Source: a virus | Strand: one strand, 5' to 3' | DNA length: 64,000 bases | Virus record (IMG/VR): IMGVR_UViG_3300033150_001207 | Span: 1-64,000 of that record | In this document: positions 5,477 to 32,167 of the stretch, one piece after another | How positions within the stretch are numbered: the first letter of the stretch is position 1 | Layout of the letters: each line of letters starts with the position of its first letter | The notes under the pieces: generated by a model | Seen by the model: only the letters and a program-made list of their open reading frames with translations | Told to the model about the DNA's origin: nothing | The model's database searches: none | Made by a program: the position numbers and the translations under genes

Positions 5477-5505
5477 AATATAATACCACAAAAAATGCTT
5501 GTCAA
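5477..5505 (-). promoter_or_regulatory. Consensus promoter for the leftward early operon
   Basis: TTGACA at 5500-5505 and TATATT at 5477-5482 on the minus strand with exactly 17 bases between. It sits directly upstream of the first gene (5431). Confidence 0.8.
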
Positions 5506-5753
5506 TAAAAAAGTACAGAAAATCCCGATTTTTTTCATATCATAACATATTGTTTATTATAATACATGCAGTTTTTAGTGGATTAAACACCTATGATTTA
5601 GTGGATTAAACACTACAAGGATTGTATCATGCGAGGGCTGTCGTAAAACTACGAAAGTTGTCGTAGAACTGTGTCTGAAAGTGATTGTGTGAGGGTATAT
5701 AATATATATAATGTATTATAGCAAAAGTCGTGCCAGTGTGTATGCCTAGAGGG

Positions 5754-5994
5754 ATAGTCTACAGTAGAGTATATCTATATCAATGTCGGTTTTGTGTGAA
5801 TAGTCTACAGTAGAATATACTACAGTAGTATTGTTGGTGTATTGGCTGTTTTACTGTTCCCGTTATTGCTATAAGCATTGTCGCAAGTGGAATAGTCTAC
5901 TGTAGACTATCTGTTGTGTATATTAAATATGGTTTGCTCTATTACTGGCGTTGTGAGTATTATTGTAAACGGAATAGTCTACTGTGGAATACTC
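5754..5994. repeat. Cluster of ATAGTCTACTGTAGACTAT-like palindromes
   Basis: Sites lie at 5754-5772, 5799-5832 (a double site), 5892-5910 and 5974-5993. The 5892-5910 copy is a perfect 19-base palindrome with arms ATAGTCTAC and GTAGACTAT. Two further copies, TATTCTACAGTAGTATA and TATTCCACAGTAGTATAT, are at 6522 and 6594. Confidence 0.75.
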
Positions 5995-6013
5995 GCTGTG
6001 TTGATTTGTGTTT

Positions 6014-6060
6014 GTTAGGTTTTATCTAACACAAGACATACCACCACCCCACCCCAATTG
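6014..6060 (+). other. Degenerate copy of the folded leader element
   Basis: Bases 6014-6033 (GTTAGGTTTTATCTAACACA) are identical to the reverse complement of 28509-28528. They are followed by GACATACCACC and a C-rich run ending CCCCAATTGG, as in the other copies. The GTTAG/CTAAC hairpin is intact, but the upstream promoter and the closing GGTGG arm are missing. Confidence 0.6.
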
Positions 6061-6121
6061 GAATGTAATAACACTACGACACTACGAATGCGAGTACTGT
6101 CGTAGCTGGTACACTTGTTGC

Positions 6122-6654
6122 TGTAAATATTTACACTGGCGGGCAGTATTAGGTTGTATTGTTCGTTGTATTCGTTGCATTATATATTGTACTCGTTGTA
6201 TTACATGTTATAGCCAGAGTATTACACATTGTATTATACCAGAGCGACGTATAAATATTTACACACCCCCGTACTGATATGGCCAGAATGCGTATTGGTA
6301 GAAGACGCACAACCATACATTATACCATCAGTACCATTAGTACCATCAATACAATCAGCACCATCAGCACAAACGGCGCTATCAGTACAACCAGAAAACC
6401 AACTATGAGTATAAATATTTACACATCCACAATACCGTATTCCCTATGCTCGCACAACATATTGTACTATGCGCAGTATAAATACTTATATATTTCATAG
6501 TGGTATATTCCCGTACTTGTGTATTCTACAGTAGTATACCCCCTTGTCCGTACAATCTGTTGTACCAGTATAAGCATTTATATACCTTTTCACATATTCC
6601 ACAGTAGTATATCCCATACCCACATAATCCATCATACCAGTATAAGCGTTTACA
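6122..6654. repeat. Six TATAAATATTTACA-type palindromic sites
   Basis: Copies at 6122 (TGTAAATATTTACA, perfect palindrome), 6250, 6410, 6477, 6569 and 6641, mostly 65-160 bases apart. Those from 6410 on sit in diverged repeat units that also carry the CTACAGTAG motif. Look-alikes occur at 9832 and 29027. Confidence 0.7.
6324..6386. repeat. 9-bp minisatellite, seven copies
   Basis: Seven tandem diverged copies of ACCATCAGT fill exactly 63 bases. In one frame they give a repeating Ile-Ser-Thr peptide, which I take as a by-product, not a gene. Confidence 0.8.
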
Positions 6655-7226
6655 CCTATACGAGTACCGTCGCACACATACCCCCGGTGTACAAGGGTCA
6701 CGCACGAGCGGGCAGGTGTATGTATATATAATATAGGGTACTATTCCCACACATGCATTTTCTATTTTATTTTTTTTCACATCCAGAATTGGTATGTTAG
6801 TTTATTATTATATTTTGAATAGCAACATACCATACCAAAACCTAATATATCCCCGAAACGCCAATACCATCTATAGGGTTATGCTCTGGTTGTTTCCCTA
6901 AATATATATCTGCATTATATTTATGCATTATTGTGATTTCGGGCGGTAAATTCTGAGTATTCGTGGGTTCTTAGTTATCGTTGTGCTTCGTATTTTTACA
7001 AAGCTCATTGTGTGTTTTGCTTGGGTGCTATATAATATTGTATTTGTGTATCATTGTAGTCTTGATAGTACGGCAAAAGTGGTTGGTTGGCGGTATACAT
7101 TACAACATATTACTGTATTTACACTTAAGCCCTAGGCGCTATATACAGAGGTATAATTGTAAATTCGAATGTAGCAGGTATGAATTGTTTATGATCTGTA
7201 GTGTAATCTCTATATCCACTTATATT

Positions 7227-7646
7227 TTATCGATTCCTCCAGTGTACATTCCTGACTTTATCCGCCGTCCATTCGTCGGTATATCTCGGTTTTAGTTTTT
7301 TATTATTCAACTCTCTCGCTATTTGCAAATACGATTTACCTTCTTTTCTGAGTTGTTTTATTAACGATATTATTTTTTGTTCTTTCGGTTCGGGTACTAT
7401 CACATTTCTGAGGTCGTATTTGTATCCGTAGCCTGTTCCCCCAGGACGCCTCTTGAATATTATACCTTTCTGATCCCTTTTCTCAAGCCATTCCATGAAC
7501 ACGTTGATATTGTCGAGTGTTTCAGACTCGGTTTTACCGATTAGCCTGTTTGCTATCTGGTGTGGCAGGTCGGTACTTTTTACAAGATTACCGATAGGGG
7601 TATTATCGTCATCCAGATTTGAGTTACATTTACCCATATTTCCCAT
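7227..7646 (-). CDS. DNA-binding protein with resolvase-type helix-turn-helix (139 aa)
   Basis: ATG behind GAGGGGAAATAGCTCA. Residues ~93-135 (LIKQLRKEGKSYLQIAREL ... YTDEWTADKVRNV) match the pattern at the end of large serine recombinases, where a helix-turn-helix contacts DNA. There is no catalytic serine domain, so this is not a recombinase but probably a regulator or DNA-binding accessory. It starts 4 bases after the upstream HExxH gene, so the two are likely co-translated. Confidence 0.65.
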   Translation of the reverse strand: MGNMGKCNSNLDDDNTPIGNLVKSTDLPHQIANRLIGKTESETLDNINVFMEWLEKRDQKGIIFKRRPGGTGYGYKYDLRNVIVPEPKEQKIISLIKQLRKEGKSYLQIARELNNKKLKPRYTDEWTADKVRNVHWRNR

Positions 7647-7650
7647 TGAG

Positions 7651-7971
7651 CTATTTCCCCTCCTCGAAGAAGTTTAATTTATTGTCTGACAATACCTGGA
7701 ACAACGCCCTGGAATGACGTCTTATAAAATCTTCGTTGTCATCCTTGCTGGCAACAATGGTCAAAGCATTGTCTATTGTATGGTCTATTTCGTGTAATAG
7801 CGCACACATTTGTCTTGAAAACGGCATATCTTTTTCTATTTCAATAAGACATTCACTATGCTTTACGGTTGCATGACCGGGTTCATCCCATTTATTCAAC
7901 TGTGGTCTATCTACTAATCTTACTTCATGCACCAAACCTAAAATATTTATTTTTTTGGGTAATTTTTTCAT
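7651..7971 (-). CDS. Putative HExxH metallopeptidase-like phage protein (106 aa)
   Basis: Residues ~59-63 read HEIDH in a helix (ALLHEIDHTID), the zinc-binding HExxH signature. The N-terminal beta segment (INILGLVHEVRLVD) is typical of small phage proteins related to ImmA/SprT-like peptidases. Its substrate is unknown. No partner repressor of the ImmR type is adjacent. Confidence 0.65.
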   Translation of the reverse strand: MKKLPKKINILGLVHEVRLVDRPQLNKWDEPGHATVKHSECLIEIEKDMPFSRQMCALLHEIDHTIDNALTIVASKDDNEDFIRRHSRALFQVLSDNKLNFFEEGK

Positions 7972-8019
7972 GTTTTTCTCCTTAAATTTTATTGTTTAAT
8001 ATTACATAGTAGTATATAC

Positions 8020-8229
8020 TCAGTGACCTTTTGGAACTCTAGTTTGTCTCTGTTTGCTTGTTTTTGCCATTTCTTCGAGCAACACACCGTTATTGTACAA
8101 ATAATTTATTGCAAAACTCATCAATGCATATAGTGTACATTCCCCGTTGTTTTTGTCAAACAATGCGCATTCAGTTTCGCAGTCATAATTAGTATTCTTA
8201 CTGTTAAAAAGTTTAATCGGACATATCAT
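8020..8229 (-). CDS. Cysteine-rich small protein (69 aa)
   Basis: ATG behind AGGAGAACAAAA. Cysteines at C3, CETEC and C31 suggest a small metal site, followed by a hydrophobic helix and a basic tail. No family recognised. Its start overlaps the end of the gene at 8213-8389. Confidence 0.6.
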   Translation of the reverse strand: MICPIKLFNSKNTNYDCETECALFDKNNGECTLYALMSFAINYLYNNGVLLEEMAKTSKQRQTRVPKGH

Positions 8230-8389
8230 TTTTGTTCTCCTGTAGGTTATTGGTGTTTTGTTTTTCTATATTGTATTTCCCGCAATATATGCATTTGTAT
8301 TGATTCCATATAGTACCCCGATGGCTCGTGAATGTTTGTACATATTCCCAGACATGATTACATTTGCTATTTCTATTTTTGTTCCTCAT
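8213..8389 (-). CDS. Zinc-ribbon protein (58 aa)
   Basis: ATG at 8387-8389 to TAA at 8213, overlapping the next start by 17 bases. Metal ligands are visible as C-x-H near residue 10 (CNHVWEYV) and CIYCGK near residue 33, the usual phage mini-ribbon layout. The ribosome site (AAGAGAAC) is modest. Confidence 0.6.
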   Translation of the reverse strand: MRNKNRNSKCNHVWEYVQTFTSHRGTIWNQYKCIYCGKYNIEKQNTNNLQENKNDMSD

Positions 8390-8419
8390 TCAGTTCTCTT
8401 ATTCTTCTGTTTTTGTACT

Positions 8420-8857
8420 TTATTTTATATTTCTTAATTCTATTTTATGTTTACAATTAGGACAGGTTACAAAAGTCGAGTTCGGGTCTCGCCACATTGT
8501 TGTATTATATCCCTCTTTATAAGATTCTTGATACACTGATTTAATGGCTTTCCAGAATAATTCTGCGGATTCTGTTAAATCGACATCATCCCCATAAGTT
8601 ACATCGCCATTCTTTAAATTAATCTTTACTTGATTATTGCCAATAACTATATAATCATTATGACCAATTGTTGTCAATGTTTTTAATTCTTTTTGAGTAT
8701 CAAATATTAAGGGGTTATTATCGGAAGTAAATATATTCTGCTCTGGCTTCATTGTACTCATTCCTTTTGTTGTATTTCGTAATGGTATTACAACTAGTAT
8801 TATATATGATAAAGTTAATAATAGTACCGTTAATATTATTAGAAGTATTATTTTCAT
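8420..8857 (-). CDS. Membrane-anchored protein with C-terminal CxxC (145 aa)
   Basis: Residues ~3-26 form one strong hydrophobic segment (IILLIILTVLLLTLSYIIL), predicting an N-terminal anchor with the remainder on one side of the membrane. The C-terminus carries CPNCKHK, half of a zinc ribbon. Function unknown. Confidence 0.65.
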   Translation of the reverse strand: MKIILLIILTVLLLTLSYIILVVIPLRNTTKGMSTMKPEQNIFTSDNNPLIFDTQKELKTLTTIGHNDYIVIGNNQVKINLKNGDVTYGDDVDLTESAELFWKAIKSVYQESYKEGYNTTMWRDPNSTFVTCPNCKHKIELRNIK

Positions 8858-8861
8858 AATA

Positions 8862-9170
8862 TTATTCCTCCCGTGTATTTAATTCTCTTATTTTCCTTTT
8901 TACACCCTTAATATTCACCAGTCTGTATTCATATTCCTTGCTATATTTGACTGCCCGCACTATCTTATATTTAAACTTCAGCACACATGCCCATTCAGGA
9001 AGTTTCAATTCGTACGCCTGTTCTATTTTATCCTTGCTATACACTATCGTCGGTATATATCCATCCAATAAAGCACTCAAGAACTTCCTGTACTCCAACG
9101 CAGAATATACAATACCTGCATTTCCCATTTGTTCCGTAATACCGTATTCAGTCTTAACATAATCACCTAT
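8862..9170 (-). CDS. Hypothetical protein with apparent ATA start (102 aa)
   Basis: An ATG at 9128 gives 88 residues but lacks a ribosome site. The same frame extends 14 codons upstream with credible coding sequence (GDYVKTEYGITEQ) to an ATA at 9168-9170. That ATA sits seven bases after AGGGA, and a stop is only six codons upstream (TAA ATC AGG GAA GTT TAC ATA) with no ATG, GTG or TTG between. The GDYV-T-YG opening is common in small phage proteins. I favour the ATA, or a mutated ATG, as the true start. Confidence 0.6.
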   Translation of the reverse strand: MGDYVKTEYGITEQMGNAGIVYSALEYRKFLSALLDGYIPTIVYSKDKIEQAYELKLPEWACVLKFKYKIVRAVKYSKEYEYRLVNIKGVKRKIRELNTREE

Positions 9171-9189
9171 GTAAACTTCCCTGATTTAA

Positions 9190-9375
9190 CTACCGATTAT
9201 CAATTTCAAACAACAATTCCCCGCAATTTTTACAATAACCAGCAGAACATTCCATACACCCACAATCAAAGCATACATACCGAAACCGCTTGAAATGTGC
9301 GACAATTGTCAATAATTCTTTGTTTTGTCCAAATCTGCACATTCTATCTACCGTTGTTTTATCTATCTCAGACAT
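9190..9375 (-). CDS. Zinc-ribbon protein (61 aa)
   Basis: ATG at 9373-9375 behind AGGAGGATGCGAACA. The second half holds CFDCGCMEC and CKNCGE, a compact four-to-six-cysteine zinc site. The frame continues upstream through proline-rich nonsense, which is excluded. Confidence 0.65.
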   Translation of the reverse strand: MSEIDKTTVDRMCRFGQNKELLTIVAHFKRFRYVCFDCGCMECSAGYCKNCGELLFEIDNR

Positions 9376-9435
9376 TGTTCGCATCCTCCTGTGTTTGTTA
9401 CCATTCTCCGACTTTACCCAGCACGACCAGAAGCA

Positions 9436-9486
9436 GGGGGTGTGGGGTGTGGGTTGGGTGGGGAGGAAGGGGGTAGGGGATGGGGG
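9436..9486 (+). other. G-quadruplex-prone tract
   Basis: Eight runs of three or more G in 51 bases on the top strand (9436-40, 9444-47, 9451-53, 9456-58, 9460-63, 9469-73, 9476-79, 9482-86). The leftward transcript reads it as a C-rich, G-poor stretch between two genes, which could also act as a Rho loading site. Confidence 0.7.
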
Positions 9487-9494
9487 TATCACCA

Positions 9495-9785
9495 TTACTC
9501 TTTCTCACCCAATCCATCCCTCACATTCTCCACATACCTGCTCAACACACCAATACACATCTTCTCCAACCCCATATTACACGACTCTGCGATCCCCTGC
9601 AAATTATCCCTCAAACTCTTCCTTATATTTAAACAAATTACAGTCTCATTAAACTCATTCTCATAATACTTACTCACAGCTGGCTCTATAAGCGATGTCC
9701 AGCTCTTACGCTTCTTTTTCTTGAGATTGCTTAGCTTTTCATGCAGTTCTTCAGGTAGGATAATATGAAGCTCACGGTTTTTCAC
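9495..9785 (-). CDS. Tandem ribbon-helix-helix DNA-binding protein (96 aa)
   Basis: Start is GTG at 9783-9785 behind GGAGAATTTTT. Residues ~4-33 (ELHIILPEELHEKLSNL ... SWTSLIEPAV) have the strand-helix-helix pattern of CopG/Arc-type RHH proteins. A second such unit follows at ~43-85 (TVICLNIRKSLRDNLQGIA ... GLEKMCIGVLSRYV). RHH proteins normally dimerise to form one DNA-binding unit, so two in one chain could be a pre-built dimer. The long upstream region holds ten 11-bp iterons and a palindrome, so it is likely the DNA partner and autoregulatory site. Repressor and ParR-like centromere binder are both possible. Confidence 0.65.
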   Translation of the reverse strand: MKNRELHIILPEELHEKLSNLKKKKRKSWTSLIEPAVSKYYENEFNETVICLNIRKSLRDNLQGIAESCNMGLEKMCIGVLSRYVENVRDGLGEKE

Positions 9786-9831
9786 AAAAATTCTCCTGTG
9801 GAAATACGATAACAACAATCAGTTGAACCCG

Positions 9832-9845
9832 TGTAAATAATTACA
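9832..9845. promoter_or_regulatory. Operator-like palindrome upstream of the RHH gene
   Basis: GTGTAAATAATTACAC (9831-9846) has 6-base arms and lies about 50 bases before the RHH start. Similar sites occur at 6122 and 29027 (GTGTAATTGTTTACAT). Confidence 0.5.
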
Positions 9846-9884
9846 CATAGCGTCTGGGAAAAACAATAATTACTATCCCGAAAT

Positions 9885-10251
9885 GGACATTTTTTGGATA
9901 TTTTAGAGGTATTTTCCCAATAATAGTAATTAATTGAGTAATAATAACGGTTAATTTAATAATAACAACAATTTAATTTTGGATATTTTTTGGATATTTA
10001 ATATAATAAATCTTAATGTAAATATACTACGCCAGCTTTAATATAATACATACTATATAATATGTCAAGAGTTTTTTCAAAAAAATTTAATTTTGGATAT
10101 TTTTTGGATATTTTTTTCTTATATTATGAAACCACTATAATGACTTAACTATATATATAACAAACATTTACGTTCTGTGAGACTGTGAGATTGTGGTACA
10201 CGTGTTTTTTCTGGACATTTTTTGGATACTTTTTGGATACTTTTTGGACAT
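9885..10251. repeat. Ten 11-bp iterons (GGAYAYTTTTT)
   Basis: GGA(T/C)A(T/C) followed by T-runs occurs at 9885/9896, 9981/9992, 10095/10106 and 10213/10224/10235/10246. Within each cluster the spacing is exactly 11 bases, one helical turn. The clusters flank the leftward promoter at 10040-10068. The gene-free stretch 9846-10422 contains nothing else I would call coding. Confidence 0.8.
10040..10068 (-). promoter_or_regulatory. Consensus promoter between iteron clusters
   Basis: Minus-strand TTGACA at 10063-10068 and TATATT at 10040-10045, 17 bases apart. It reads toward the RHH gene through two iteron pairs. Confidence 0.75.
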
Positions 10252-10273
10252 TTTCTGTACCACAGTCTCACAG
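10183..10273. repeat. 18-base inverted repeat enclosing four iterons
   Basis: CTGTGAGATTGTGGTACA (10183-10200) and TGTACCACAGTCTCACAG (10256-10273) are complementary at 17 of 18 positions. The loop holds the four-copy iteron cluster. Confidence 0.7.
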
Positions 10274-10337
10274 TGAGACAAAAAAATACCAGATACACAT
10301 ATACACATGAATCTGGGTTTCCCGCTATTCCGCTAGT

Positions 10338-10366
10338 AATATAATCGGTATCAATGGATATGTCAA
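10338..10366 (-). promoter_or_regulatory. Consensus promoter upstream of the iteron region
   Basis: Minus-strand TTGACA at 10361-10366 and TATATT at 10338-10343 with 17 bases between. The transcript would cross the inverted repeat and all iterons before the RHH gene, giving a leader of over 500 bases. Confidence 0.75.
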
Positions 10367-10422
10367 GTGTTTCTTTGCTACTTTTTTTGATTCACTGAAC
10401 TTTTTTATATGTTGAGTTGTTT

Positions 10423-11985
10423 TCATGTGAACATTTCCTTTTGCACCTCTGATGTTCGTTTTTTACTCATATCTTCATAACCCAAATCAAATCCGATATA
10501 ATTACGCCCGTATGCAAGCGCTACTTTACCAGTAGTGCCCGATCCCATAAACGGGTCGAGAACAATACCAGGATGGAAACCTGCGGATTCGACTTTGATA
10601 TTTGTTGAATTACATTTGAGGCAAGTTATTTCCGTGAAAGCTTCATACTCGGATTTGGTATAATACGATACATTCCCACATGCAATACAGGTAATTTTTT
10701 TACAACCGCAATCGGTATAACCAGTAAATTCTATACTTTTGTTGAAATTATCAATACCCCAATGTCCTCCACCCATACCTGCTTTTTTAAGATTCTGTCT
10801 GTAATCAGATATTTGAGGATCTCTAATTTTCTCTTTAGTGTATATTTTCTCTCTTGCTTTTCCGCATTTATTGCATATATATTGTGGACAACCGGCGAGA
10901 ATAGGGGTCTCCACGAGTTTCTCTGGGAATACGGCGAAATGGCTGTCATGGAACGGCTGTGTCGGCACATCCCAGACACATCTTTTATTACGACCTTTCT
11001 CTGGATCGAAAGGACTTACAAGATGGTCAGCACCTTCAAATTCGTGCGGTGCTTTGCTTTTATCATATCGCTTATAATCTCTATGGTATCTCGCTCTCGG
11101 ACTACTATAATTTTCAGCTTGCTCTTTCGGGATTTTAGTATTACGATTTGGTCTTGGTTGATTCATTGTATGCCTGGTTTGACCATCAGGACCGTTTACC
11201 CACTTATGTTTATTGCTTACCGCACGGTTTAATCTATCAATACTACACTGCTGGACGGGTTCAAACTGTTGCTCGAAATAATATTTCCTTTGCTTTGTAA
11301 AGAAGAAAACAGGTTCCCAGTCCACTGTAAAACGATCTTTTGCTGATGAAGGAAGAGTATTTCTTTTGTGCCACACTATCTTGTTCCGCGCAAGAAATCC
11401 AAGCTCGTCCACCATCATTATTATGAACCGTTCAGGAATAAGACAGAGGGATTTAGCTTGCAGTCCAGCAGCATTAACCCCCGATTGCTTGACATATCTA
11501 TTATCTTTCCATTGTTTCTTGCCGCCAGGATGCCCACCACTACGACCAGCATTATAAGTATCGCCCAGATTCACAAAACAAGTGCCAGTAGGTTTCAGTA
11601 CACGTTTTACTTCTGCGAATATCTGCTTGAGATGCTGTAAGTACAGATCAAATGTTGGTTCAAGTCCTAACGATCCCCTGAATGCGTTACAATGAATACA
11701 AAAAGCATATTGAGAATCCGGCGTCTTTTGATAATTTTCAACACCTTTTATCTTGAGTTTTTCAGCAAAGGGATTATCTTTGCCACCAGTAATATCCCTT
11801 TTTATACCAGTCTTCCACTCATGCTTGCAGTTCTTATCATTTTCATCCCATATTTGCGGCGGAAGACCGTAATTTCGTAGGCCAAAGTAGGGCGGACTGG
11901 TAACACAGCAGTCTATACTCTCGTCAGGTAACTGCTTTATTAAATCTAAAACATGACCAATATGTGTTTTATTTACCTCAAGCAT
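10423..11985 (-). CDS. SPPY-type DNA methyltransferase (520 aa)
   Basis: Methylates an exocyclic amino group in DNA using S-adenosylmethionine. TSPPYFGLRNYG near residue 30 is the catalytic motif IV (SPPY is commonest in N4-cytosine enzymes, also found in N6-adenine ones). LDPFMGSGTTGKVA near residue 480 is the SAM-binding motif I, so the order is IV then I (beta class). The insert at ~370-455 contains several CxxC pairs (CNKCGK, CIACG, CLKCN), likely a zinc-stabilised target-recognition region. The start abuts the stop of the upstream 34-residue gene (TAAATG). Confidence 0.88.
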   Translation of the reverse strand: MLEVNKTHIGHVLDLIKQLPDESIDCCVTSPPYFGLRNYGLPPQIWDENDKNCKHEWKTGIKRDITGGKDNPFAEKLKIKGVENYQKTPDSQYAFCIHCNAFRGSLGLEPTFDLYLQHLKQIFAEVKRVLKPTGTCFVNLGDTYNAGRSGGHPGGKKQWKDNRYVKQSGVNAAGLQAKSLCLIPERFIIMMVDELGFLARNKIVWHKRNTLPSSAKDRFTVDWEPVFFFTKQRKYYFEQQFEPVQQCSIDRLNRAVSNKHKWVNGPDGQTRHTMNQPRPNRNTKIPKEQAENYSSPRARYHRDYKRYDKSKAPHEFEGADHLVSPFDPEKGRNKRCVWDVPTQPFHDSHFAVFPEKLVETPILAGCPQYICNKCGKAREKIYTKEKIRDPQISDYRQNLKKAGMGGGHWGIDNFNKSIEFTGYTDCGCKKITCIACGNVSYYTKSEYEAFTEITCLKCNSTNIKVESAGFHPGIVLDPFMGSGTTGKVALAYGRNYIGFDLGYEDMSKKRTSEVQKEMFT

Positions 11986-12090
11986 TTATCCTAACACTTC
12001 CATAATCACAATACCCAGGCACAAGCCAAGTATGAACCCGTAAATTGTGAAGAACATATAGGCTACCACGACATAGGATTTATTATCCAT
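11986..12090 (-). CDS. Single-span membrane peptide (34 aa)
   Basis: ATG behind AGAGGGAAATTGTAAA. Almost the whole product (YVVVAYMFFTIYGFILGLCL...) is hydrophobic, giving one membrane helix. Its TAA directly abuts the ATG of the methylase. Function unknown. Confidence 0.55.
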   Translation of the reverse strand: MDNKSYVVVAYMFFTIYGFILGLCLGIVIMEVLG

Positions 12091-12117
12091 TTTACAATTT
12101 CCCTCTTTCTGAAAGTT

Positions 12118-12267
12118 TTACAGTATTTCCCACTTAGGCAGAACAAATCGTGCTATTTCCTTTACTTTCCGCCCACATGATGGACATGAAAAAGTACGAT
12201 AATTAACAGAAAATTAGTGTCCGCAGTAGTAGCATTTGTACATTTTGTACAGTAATTTTTCACTCAT
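12118..12267 (-). pseudogene. Zinc-ribbon gene split by an in-frame TAA
   Basis: From ATG 12265-12267 the frame reads MSEKLLYKMYKCYYCGH, then TAA at 12214-12216. It then stays open in the same frame for FSVNYRTFSCPSCGRKV... to TAA at 12118. The two CxxC knuckles on either side of the stop together form one ordinary zinc ribbon, so the stop interrupts a once-intact gene. The start overlaps the end of the upstream gene (ATGAGTGA). Confidence 0.65.
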
Positions 12268-12499
12268 CTTCAACCCTAGATGTCTTGTGAATTTTGTTCA
12301 CAATTCGTGCCCATTCCGCTTTTTCCAATTTCATTATATACTTCTCAATTGCCATAAGATGTTTCATAAGTGTGTTGAACAACCTATCATAATCGGGTTC
12401 ATTCTTAGAAGTATTGGATATAAATTTTTCTAACTCGAAAGTATCATATATGAACTTTTCCAGCATTCTTATTTCAGAATTTACTTTTGTTTTATGCAC
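12260..12499 (-). CDS. Hypothetical helical protein (79 aa)
   Basis: Predicted all-helical, charged, coiled-coil-like (LEKFIYDTFELEKFI). No known family. The end overlaps the start of the broken zinc-ribbon gene. Confidence 0.6.
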   Translation of the reverse strand: MHKTKVNSEIRMLEKFIYDTFELEKFISNTSKNEPDYDRLFNTLMKHLMAIEKYIMKLEKAEWARIVNKIHKTSRVEDE

Positions 12500-12563
12500 T
12501 GTTTTTAGCCCTAGATAACAGGTTTATTGAACAGATTTATATCGTTGCCTTTTTAAATGGTTT

Positions 12564-13343
12564 CTATTCAAATATTACAGTCTGATCTGGATTTTCATAT
12601 TTTTTCTTAGATTCATAAATCCACCAATGCATAACTTCTTCTGGTGTATTCCAATCTGTGTTTTTGCTTCTGCCAATTCTATTTTCAAGCATATTCTTGA
12701 AAGCCTTCAAATAAAGCTTATAATATCTGGGATAACGTTCAGCATCTCTAAGCATGCTCCGTTTACCTGACATAGGACACATAATGCAGCCAATCCGAGA
12801 ATACCCTTCATCATATAAACAGCAGTAATTTAAATGATATTTCTTAATAAATTCCCATACATCAACAGTTGTCCAATCAATTATTGGATTTAAAAAATGT
12901 TTCATTTTATTCTTAAAACAAGTTTCAAACATTCTTCTTTTGGATCGCTTATAACTTTCTTTTCTACGGATACCAGTTATAACTATTCTTCTATTACCAC
13001 CATGTTCTTTTAAATCTTTACAGCAATAGCGTACTTTTCTTGTGGGAGGTATTGTATTTTCAGATATTATTTTCCACATTGTTTTGGGCGGTTTTTCCAA
13101 AATCACGTCAGGATAATATTTTTTTGTAAATTGTATTACTTCTGGTGGATCAACTGATGTAAGATTGAAATGAGCATCGAATTTCACTCTTGCCATTTTT
13201 GCAAGCTCATATATACACTGACTATCTTTTCCGCCGCTGAAAGCGAGATAATAGCCTTCAGGAGGTTCAAATTCTTTTAAACGTTCGATAGCAATTTGAA
13301 TCTTATCAATTTCACCGAAAAGTGTTAATTCTTTAAGGGGCAT
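12564..13343 (-). CDS. PAPS-reductase-like PP-loop protein (259 aa)
   Basis: SGGKDS near residue 35 is the ATP-binding PP-loop of the PAPS reductase / ATP-sulfurylase / DndC-like family. KVRYCCKDLKEH near residue 103 and CIMCP near residue 198 supply the cysteines typical of the phage and Dnd branches, and VITGIRRKES is the expected mid-motif. Phage members are common and their substrate is mostly unknown; sulphur activation or nucleotide modification has been proposed. A DndC role would need DndA/D/E partners, which are absent here. Confidence 0.8.
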   Translation of the reverse strand: MPLKELTLFGEIDKIQIAIERLKEFEPPEGYYLAFSGGKDSQCIYELAKMARVKFDAHFNLTSVDPPEVIQFTKKYYPDVILEKPPKTMWKIISENTIPPTRKVRYCCKDLKEHGGNRRIVITGIRRKESYKRSKRRMFETCFKNKMKHFLNPIIDWTTVDVWEFIKKYHLNYCCLYDEGYSRIGCIMCPMSGKRSMLRDAERYPRYYKLYLKAFKNMLENRIGRSKNTDWNTPEEVMHWWIYESKKKYENPDQTVIFE

Positions 13344-13351
13344 TTAAAAAC

Positions 13352-13585
13352 TCAAAAATTAAAATGTGGTTTATCATCATAAGACTTCCACTCAATCCAT
13401 AAATAGCGATTTGGTACATATATACATCTACCACGTTTACTAAATACTCTATGCCCACCCGATTCTGAAATGTATAATTTAGACGGTTCATCTATTCTAA
13501 GAATACGATTCGTAAAGTGATATTCTCTAACTTTTTCGTTTGATATATCAATAAACTCATATCCGCTTTCATCCCTAAATTCCAT
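13352..13585 (-). CDS. Hypothetical protein (77 aa)
   Basis: ATG behind AGGAGAATGAA. Contains IDEPSKLYISESGGHRVF, a pattern that recurs in small phage proteins of unknown role. Lies 8 bases upstream of the PP-loop gene and is probably co-expressed with it. Confidence 0.65.
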   Translation of the reverse strand: MEFRDESGYEFIDISNEKVREYHFTNRILRIDEPSKLYISESGGHRVFSKRGRCIYVPNRYLWIEWKSYDDKPHFNF

Positions 13586-13620
13586 TTCATTCTCCTGTAT
13601 CTATGTTATTTGCCTTTTAA

Positions 13621-13649
13621 ACGGCGGAAGAAGGGACTAACACCGCCGT
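13621..13649 (-). terminator. GC-rich hairpin, possible terminator or leader structure
   Basis: ACGGCGG (13621-13627) pairs with CCGCCGT (13643-13649). On the minus strand it follows the methylase gene and is trailed by TTTAAAA, a weak U-run. Confidence 0.4.
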
Positions 13650-13707
13650 CAGTATAACTTATGTTATGGTTAAAGGTGAACATCAACAGACTATCCCTTC
13701 GTTTTTG

Positions 13708-14324
13708 TTACCTAAAGTGTTCATGAAATTGGCTACTATCGTTGTTGTATCTCATTTGCACGTTAAAAAGCTTTTTAATACTTTCATTTATATTCATTCC
13801 GTCAATATCATAACCTACCGAATCCCATCCTTTATGTTTCTCACGTGCAAAAAGCTCTATACGTGGTAAATCACCACACAACTGGACTATTCTATCTCTG
13901 ACTTCATCGGGTTTTTTTTTGAGTGAATAACAGCTTTTTGAGATATAAATTGCCTTACGTTTCCACTTACCCTTTTGGGTTGTCCTTTTGTAAACAACAA
14001 ACAAATCTCAGCACCTTTTCTTGTCCAGTATCCCATACCAAACCTTTGTTTATCCCATACAAATCCAATTGTTTTATAGACAAAGCCCCACTTTTCACCA
14101 ATCATAATTGCGTTCTTTAAATGAGCATCTTGTGTCCACATGAATAAAATACAGTTATTGTCCGCAATTTTATTTACTGGCAACTTGACAATATTTTCTA
14201 TACTCATAAGAGAGTAATGTTTATCCGAAGTCTTTCGCCGACCCTTTTTAGAATATGTATTCCATTGCCAGGGTGGATCTGCATATATGATTTGGTATCT
14301 TTTCATTTCAGTTTCAATCAACAT
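13708..14324 (-). pseudogene. MT-A70 adenine methyltransferase split by a frameshift at an A9 tract
   Basis: The first frame (14324 to ~13912) begins MLIETEMKRYQIIYADPPWQW, with the DPPW catalytic motif near residue 16, and continues with FMWTQDAHL, YWTRKGAEICLLF and KGQPKRV, all MT-A70 hallmarks. It then derails at nine As (13912-13920). The -1 frame carries the expected ending, PDEVRDRIVQLCGDLPRIEL then LFAREKHKGWDSVGYDID, to the stop at 13708. The full product would be about 205 aa. One missing or extra A, or slippage on the A-run, would restore it. It may therefore be active through slippage, truly broken, or a sequencing artefact. Confidence 0.85.
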
Positions 14325-14338
14325 TTACTAAAATTTTC

Positions 14339-14572
14339 TTACAATGATTTATTGTTTAATTCCATTAACCTCTTTACAACTTCATCGAGGTCATCTGGTT
14401 TTATCAATATTTCCGATTCGTATCCTCTGTGGTTACAGCCTTGAATCGCAATGTATTTCGCTTTCTTGTCGATTGTGAAATTATGTATTATAGGTTTTAG
14501 ATATTTCATTTGAATTTGATTATCCTTCTTTGGTTTTTGCCAACCCTTCTGCCAACCCTTCTGCCAACCCAT
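14339..14572 (-). CDS. Hypothetical protein with GWQK tandem repeat (77 aa)
   Basis: The first 13 residues are M then three copies of GWQK, encoded by a 12-bp tandem repeat; the rest (MKYLKPIIHNFTID...) is an ordinary small phage-type domain. The true start could be the internal ATG at residue 22, leaving the repeat in the leader. First gene after the leftward promoter at 14624-14652. Confidence 0.55.
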   Translation of the reverse strand: MGWQKGWQKGWQKPKKDNQIQMKYLKPIIHNFTIDKKAKYIAIQGCNHRGYESEILIKPDDLDEVVKRLMELNNKSL

Positions 14573-30301: not shown

Positions 30302-32167
30302 ATGGCTGTTTACAACCGAGCTCAGGGTATGCCAAATTATTCCGCAGATAGCGGTGGAAACTTTATTCCTGAACTGTGGGCGCCCCGTATGCAAATCAGG
30401 TTTTATAAAGCCAATGTATTCAGAGCTATTTCCAATAATAGTTATGAAGGAGAGATTAAGCAATTTGGCGACACGGTTCATATAAACACATATCCTGACA
30501 TCGACATTTTCGATTATGTTAAAGGTCAAAAACTTCCTATTCAAACACCAAGCTCCACTCCTTCAAGTCTTACTATCGATAAGGGTAAGGCTTTCAACTT
30601 TTTAGTTGATGATGTGGACAAGGTACAGTCAAGACCCGATCTCACAAAAGAGTTCGGTGATACTGCCGGGTTACAATTGGCAGAGGAAATAGACAAGGAT
30701 GTTATTCAAGGTGTTTATTCCGATGCTGATTCCGACAATGTTGGTGCGACTGCTGGTGCAGAATCAAATTCCTATGATATGGGTGCTGCGTCTGCATACG
30801 AAAGTCTCACCAAGACCACAATTCTTGACTATATCGTTGACATGGGTTCTATTTTGGATGAACAGAACGTTCCTAATGATGGCAAGCGCTGGGTTGTTTT
30901 TACACCCTGGGCTGCTGGACTCATTAGAAAATCGGATTCAAAAAGGGTCCCCTGCGTTAGTAATATCGCAGTGTAAATCAGGTGAATTGCTGGAATACTG
31001 AAATGTAAATCAGCAGCCAAGCCCTTAAATGGGAAGGTCCAACGACTAATTCCTGAGTCTTAAAAAGTCTAAACTTTTATGTCGGAGACTTAAAATGAAC
31101 AAATATGATAGGGGAGTATTAATTGGTATGGCTCTTGGGGATGGATATATAAAAGTTAAAAGTGATGCTGATAGAATCAAAAAAAGAAACCCTTCGGCAC
31201 AAATGTCTTTTAGTCATAGCATAAAACAAAAAGAATATGCTCAATACAAAGTAGATAGATTGAATAAAATATTTGGTGGAAATGCTACTTTGAGAACTGG
31301 GGTATATAAAAGTACAAACGGCGAAAGCTATAAAATATGTTATGCAAATAAGAGTAATCCATATTTTAAAGTGTTAAGAAGAATGCTTTATAAAAATGGT
31401 CAAAAATATATAACAAGGCATGTACTTAATATGTTAAATCCAGATGGTATTGCAATATGGTTTATGGATGATGGTAGCCGTAGGGCAAACAAGAATCTTG
31501 ATGGTAAAATATCGTCAGTAGCTTTAACAATAAGTACGTGTTGTTCACGAGAAGAAGTTGACTCTATAATTGACTATTTTAATGAAATATATGGAATAGG
31601 GTTTAAACCAGCATTACACAAAAGAACTAGTTTATGGTCTGTAAGAGCCAATACATATGACTCGAAAATGTTGGCAAATCTTATAATGCCATATATGATT
31701 GATTCTATGAAATACAAACTATCATTTGTTACAAAACTCAGGGAACACGAGCTCCTGAAGTCCAATAATCAGTTATATATTGTTGGATTATGAGATAGTC
31801 TAAACTTACGGAAATAGAAACCGTAAGAAGTTTAGGATAAAGAGCCTAAACGGTAATAAAATTGCTGAAAGATGTTTCCATGACTGGTGATACTGTATCA
31901 CCGCTTCGTAATGGTAGAATCGGTATGATTAATAACATGAACATTCATGTTTCCAATAATGTACTTTCTACCACCGACGGTGGAACCACTGTCTGGTATA
32001 TGCTTTTTGGTCATCCATTAGCGATTTCATTCGCAGAACAACTTGTCCAGACCCGTGCAATTCAGGCACCCGACACATTCGGATATTACATCAGTGGTCT
32101 CCATGTTTATGGATACGACGTTGTTAAACCCGAAGCTTTAGGGTATCTGTATGCGGCGAAAGGCTAA
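30302..32167 (+). CDS. Major capsid protein, split by a group I intron (about 312 aa after splicing)
   Basis: Exon 1 is 30302-30937 (MAVYNRAQGMP to ...LIRKSD) and exon 2 is 31865-32167 (LKDVSMTGDTVSPLRNG to ...LYAAKG). Together they form a continuous capsid protein with a FTPWAAGLIRKSDLKDVS junction as in related capsids. Without splicing, exon 1 runs into a stop at 30974. The precise splice sites are inferred from the reading frame, the terminal intron G and a GGAU/GUCC P1 pairing. Confidence 0.85.
30938..31864 (+). ncRNA. Group I self-splicing intron in the capsid gene (927 nt)
   Basis: The core elements are present in order: Q-like AATCAGCAGCCAAGC (31008-31022), R-like GGTCCAACGACTAAT (31036-31050) and S-like AGATAGTC (31793-31800). 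A P9-type hairpin CTTACGG/CCGTAAG (31805-31829) and a second hairpin TTTAGG/CCTAAA follow. The last intron base is G. The homing-endonuclease gene lies between R and S, a common peripheral site. Confidence 0.85.
31095..31793 (+). CDS. LAGLIDADG homing endonuclease inside the intron (232 aa)
   Basis: ATG behind GGAGACTTAAA. Two LAGLIDADG-type helices are visible: GVLIGMALGDGYI near residue 7 and GIAIWFMDDGS near residue 117, each with the acidic metal ligand, so it is a single-chain double-motif enzyme. It should cut intron-less capsid alleles and spread the intron. The body looks intact. Confidence 0.9.
   Translation: MNKYDRGVLIGMALGDGYIKVKSDADRIKKRNPSAQMSFSHSIKQKEYAQYKVDRLNKIFGGNATLRTGVYKSTNGESYKICYANKSNPYFKVLRRMLYKNGQKYITRHVLNMLNPDGIAIWFMDDGSRRANKNLDGKISSVALTISTCCSREEVDSIIDYFNEIYGIGFKPALHKRTSLWSVRANTYDSKMLANLIMPYMIDSMKYKLSFVTKLREHELLKSNNQLYIVGL

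Follow-up and report, generated by a model that had tools for sequence, protein, structure and literature searches.

An array of 11-bp direct repeats around a promoter, next to a gene for an RHH protein, gives this phage locus the look of a plasmid partition site. Is it part of a segregation system, or is it a switch for the genes behind it? The locus lies in a window of 64 kb (the whole stretch of DNA analyzed) from an IMG/VR phage record of 84,203 bases. As the last 114 bases of the record repeat the first 114, it is apparently complete, and most likely represents a genome of 84,089 bp. Matches to SU10 families were found for the portal and the adaptor protein, and a weak one to the N4-gp56 family for the capsid gene; a portal search of GTDB genomes returned no match. 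Two gene blocks are read leftward, one from about 14.6 kb to the start and the other from the end back to 62.7 kb; the genes between these blocks are read rightward. The genome has 36% G+C. The major capsid gene (30302-32167) is interrupted by an ORF for a LAGLIDADG endonuclease (31095-31793), which splits it in two. The insert is probably an intron, and showed no match to Rfam at threshold.

The iteron array and its two promoters

The features of the locus, in window coordinates and in the direction in which the RHH gene is read, are as follows.

10338-10366, - strand: promoter P1 (TTGACA-17-TATATT), outside the array
10256-10283, no strand: right arm of a 28-bp inverted repeat, containing the palindrome GTCTCACAGTGAGAC
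10212-10255, + strand: iteron cluster 4, units at 10212, 10223, 10234 and 10245
10173-10200, no strand: left arm of the 28-bp inverted repeat (arms 82% complementary; 13/13 core CTGTGAGACTGTG)
10094-10115, + strand: iteron cluster 3, units at 10094 and 10105
10040-10068, - strand: promoter P2 (TTGACA-17-TATATT), between clusters 2 and 3
9980-10001, + strand: iteron cluster 2, units at 9980 and 9991
9884-9916, + strand: iteron cluster 1, units at 9884 and 9895, decayed third at 9906
9495-9785, - strand: gene of the 96-aa RHH protein, GTG start at 9785, stop at 9495-9497
7227-9375, - strand: rest of the leftward gene run, behind the RHH gene
9190-9375, 8862-9128, 8420-8857 and 8020-8229, - strand: small ORFs of this run
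7651-7971, - strand: PHROG 1233 protein, in this run
7227-7646, - strand: stand-alone Recombinase-domain protein, last in this run

The array (9884-10255) is made up of TGGAYAYTTTT-like iterons, all on the + strand and in one orientation, which form four clusters (2+1, 2, 2 and 4 units; unit starts are the first base of this motif). An earlier note on this DNA had described ten GGAYAYTTTTT units at exact 11-base spacing on both sides of a promoter. Ten good units were indeed found, together with one decayed copy; against that consensus seven are exact and three carry 1-3 mismatches at the T tail. The 11-base spacing holds inside each of the four clusters, but not across the array as a whole, and the flanked promoter is P2, one of two, the other (P1) lying outside the array.

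The intergenic stretch 9786-10422 (637 bp) contains nine units matching at 10/11 positions or more and five adjacent pairs, whilst 1000 dinucleotide-preserving shuffles of it gave a mean of 0.17 units, a maximum of 2 and no adjacent pair. A motif-free index of 11-bp tandem repetition reached 41 at the array (shuffle maximum 9; 4 or less in windows away from the locus). The array is thus real, far beyond chance. No further tandem pair of units was found anywhere in the 84 kb, where other matches, such as that at 68962, stand singly, and the whole intergenic stretch, used as a BLAST query, gave nothing beyond a chance match of 30 bp. With 10.5 bp to the turn, the clusters start at 0.00, 0.14, 0.00 and 0.24 turn, all within 0.24 turn, so that all of them may face one side of the DNA; this is a hint only, as four random phases come that close by chance in about 5-10% of cases.

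P1 and P2 both point at the RHH gene, and their regions are 72% alike over 39 bp. Upstream of P1, at a distance of 57 bp, is the end of a methyltransferase gene (10423-11985). Because P1 lies upstream of all clusters, its transcripts cross every one of them. The iterons do not overlap the -35 or -10 boxes. The phage has about a dozen promoters of this class, with iterons at P1 and P2 only. The class (TTGACA-17-TATATT/TATACT) was seen at window positions 5505, 10068, 10366, 14652, 14689, 15199, 17817, 18953, 19035 and 58225 and at genome position 78064, almost always between genes, and 14652/14689 form a divergent pair.

The 28-bp inverted repeat, absent from the earlier note, brackets cluster 4; its arms could pair into a long stem whose loop would hold the four units of that cluster. 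An RNA reading of the leader was rejected, with no Rfam match and folding no better than shuffles (z -1.2).

The RHH protein and the genes behind it

The RHH gene has a Shine-Dalgarno sequence (AGGAGA) just upstream of its GTG start. Its full product matches PHROG 582 (Arc-like repressor; E 5.7e-8), and nothing else in the record gave an Arc/CopG-like match. Judged by sequence, the N-terminal half is an Arc-like RHH domain. The match to PF01402 (RHH) reached 14.5-17 bits, below the Pfam cut-off of 20.5, and the nearest PDB sequence, the RHH protein ORF56 (2k9i), was not significant (E 0.23).

The protein had been described as carrying two RHH domains, a claim on which sequence and structure prediction differ. 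Both halves hit PHROG 582 positions 56-98, at E 9.4e-5 (N-terminal) and 0.067 (C-terminal) in a library of 38,880 families; the latter corresponds to about 2e-6 for one pre-named family. Aligned with each other, the halves stay in register over 44 residues with no gap (score +17; 16 other offsets all negative), and shuffling of their local alignment gave p = 0.04. Single-sequence AlphaFold placed two helices of the N-terminal half in RHH positions, at low confidence, but returned a continuous long helix for the C-terminal half, whose pLDDT was high when that half was folded by itself. In RHH proteins the strands pair only in the dimer, and single-sequence structure runs tend toward long helices; we therefore keep a second RHH domain in the C-terminal half as likely.

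Strand and spacing suggest that the leftward run is probably read together with the RHH gene from P1/P2. Scans of the small downstream genes found nothing. The 139-aa product of 7227-7646 consists only of the Recombinase domain of large serine recombinases, without the catalytic domain, and a 53% relative also stands alone in contig L082. From 9433 to 9490, between the stop of the RHH gene and the next gene, the + strand carries a run of seven G-tracts, each GGG to GGGGG, possibly a G-quadruplex.

Relatives of the RHH protein were found neither by tblastn in INPHARED or PLSDB, nor in IMG/VR or GTDB genomes, nor in 50 related contigs (a search without a positive control), and these collections likewise yielded no relative of the array. 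Both the array and the RHH gene are missing from the two nearest contigs (L030 and L031; terminase 55%), and conservation of the protein-array pair was not seen in any relative. An iteron pair matched 18 IMG/VR contigs, four of them by tyrosine integrases; none of those inspected had an RHH gene of the kind studied beside the pair. In the related phage L096, the homologous DNA methyltransferase (11497-14424) appears to carry an in-frame intein-like insert (CVDIDTEIL...ITGN), and the same region also holds an opposing LAGLIDADG-like ORF.

Proposed autoregulation and the competing readings

We propose that the locus is probably the autoregulatory operator of a leftward phage operon, with the RHH protein as its putative repressor. 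The array is the only one of its kind in the genome and lies directly upstream of the record's only RHH gene. P1 and P2, both of sigma-70 type, would transcribe the RHH gene together with the small genes that follow it. The protein would bind the 11-bp iterons cooperatively, probably with one unit for each turn of the helix and all units on the same face; once bound, it would cover or loop the region around P2 and block RNA polymerase leaving P1, and operon expression would shut down as the protein accumulates. Since the iterons miss the -35 and -10 boxes, repression would need looping, wrapping or a roadblock. Flanking iterons that repress have a precedent in R1 parC, where the promoter loops out of a ParR-bound ring (review PMC5016525). 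Asymmetric repeats that all point one way would be accounted for by the unlike halves of the protein, were it a single-chain RHH pair.

What ties the RHH protein to the repeats is only adjacency and precedent, so the iterons could instead be bound by a different host or phage protein, with the RHH protein acting elsewhere. We regard this as unlikely, given that the only RHH gene found and the genome's only array are neighbors, and that binding to repeats in front of their own gene is common among RHH proteins (PMC5016525).

It is similarly improbable that the array is an iteron replication origin or a copy-control site, with the RHH protein as an initiator helper or a CopG-like control. Directly repeated iterons in a long intergenic stretch of 73% A+T would fit such a site, and two more distant contigs have a possible replication-protein gene next after the same methyltransferase (a DnaA_N-like domain at 7135-8124 of L082; a weak case at 6467-7282 of L076). 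However, RHH proteins are not known to act as initiators, no DnaA box was found in 9786-10422, no Rep gene lies alongside, and Pfam scans detected no Rep family in the record. GC skew turns elsewhere, at 14.7 and 62.6 kb, along with transcription, and is confounded by gene direction. A stronger candidate lies at 5500-7220, about 1.7 kb of non-coding DNA in which no plausible gene is seen and palindromes recur (ATAGTCTACAGTAGA-type, GTATAAATATTTACAC-type, and TTTAGTGGATTAAACAC twice), which could be a replication origin or another cis-acting region.

The likeness to R1 parC drawn in the earlier note is accurate at the level of layout, with 11-bp repeats in two sets, a promoter between them and an RHH protein; R1 ParR needs two such repeats (PMC9426499). 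This layout (PMC5016525; PMC9426499) is what would favor a one-component centromere, in which the RHH-iteron complex segregates an extrachromosomal prophage by way of a host motor or by hitch-hiking on the nucleoid. The note saw no ParM or ParA, in agreement with our scans of the whole record, and suggested that a motor gene might lie outside the window; in the full 84-kb record, apparently complete from its terminal repeats, neither a ParA-type ATPase nor an actin-like family was found. PF13614 (ParA-type ATPase) was absent from the record and positive in 14/14 control genomes, and no actin-like or ParA family was found among the 93 scanned proteins of the record; a StbA/ParM-specific search (PF06406) gave no match, with the controls likewise silent. 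Thus the locus shares with Type II partition (ParMRC) the tandem direct repeats of about 10-20 bp by a promoter, but as no motor was found in the record it lacks the defining component, the actin-like ATPase ParM encoded with its adaptor. It likewise lacks the Walker-type ParA ATPase of Type Ib partition, in which ParA works with the RHH proteins ParG/omega. Nor is there a sign of lysogeny such as an integrase, or a plasmid Rep, and a one-component centromere is in our view very unlikely. Of the two functions that the note had joined as repressor/centromere, repression is the best-supported reading, whilst a centromere is left without a motor in the record, though a host motor might take that part. 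We hold it hardly likely, too, that a motor-less RHH/iteron complex, a single-chain pair coating eleven asymmetric repeats, serves both as repressor and as partition or replication site of a phage replicon.

In unrelated contigs, TGGAYAYTTTTT-type units 11 bp apart form same-direction pairs of this motif next to tyrosine integrase genes or at their ends (L014, L016 and L024 with two pairs each, separated by about 250-280 bp; L008 with one), so that the motif is probably also an integrase arm-type site. That the present array consists of attP arm-type sites of a tyrosine integrase is nonetheless most improbable, as an attP site does not have the layout seen here, ten units in four clusters along with tandem promoters and a neighboring RHH gene, and the record has neither a tyrosine integrase (PF00589; 14/14 controls positive) nor a serine recombinase catalytic domain (controls positive).

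Comparison with known systems

With autoregulation as the preferred reading, a fair analogy is that the locus may work like the repressor side of ParR/parC. R1 also pairs an RHH protein with 11-bp direct repeats, sets of which flank the promoter of its operon, and autorepression by a looped promoter is known there. In contrast to R1, the phage record has no ParM or other motor, its RHH gene heads a run of unrelated small genes, and its locus has four clusters and a second promoter outside them. The ParMRC adaptor joins an N-terminal RHH to a C-terminal tail that binds the motor; the C-terminal half of the phage protein, by its sequence, looks more like a second RHH domain than a ParM-binding tail, but comes out as a helix in single-sequence AlphaFold.

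Arc/Mnt/CopG-type repressors (PHROG 582) offer another parallel: here, too, a small phage RHH protein stands beside its likely operator, the sequence match is significant, and the place of the array relative to P1 and P2 fits a repressor of this type. Theirs are one or a few operator sites, whereas here ten to eleven asymmetric repeats extend over 370 bp. The TraY protein of the F plasmid is a single-chain RHH that sits as a 'train' on its sites (PMC12117103). If the phage C-terminal half is an RHH domain, the two would share two RHH units per chain and adjacent copies on repeated sites, and same-direction asymmetric repeats would suit a single-chain pair of this kind. TraY, however, acts at oriT with a relaxase, and Pfam scans of the phage record found no relaxase family. 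Phage 186 Apl is a second precedent, a phage regulator on direct repeats one helical turn apart, which lie between early promoters (PMC7498355), but Apl is also an excisionase, whereas the phage here has no integrase and its protein is an RHH.

A phage RHH autoregulator acting on repeats is known already. What sets this one apart, in a virus previously unseen, is how many repeats there are, how they are arranged, and that the RHH protein may be single-chain. The putative operon brings together small orphan genes beside several methyltransferases, and could hold host-takeover or anti-defence functions. The locus offers a test case for a plasmid-centromere-like layout, 11-bp iterons around a promoter with an RHH protein, as a pure phage gene switch. 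A further lesson, if the protein is truly a single-chain RHH pair, would be why repeats that are direct and asymmetric suit a protein of this type.
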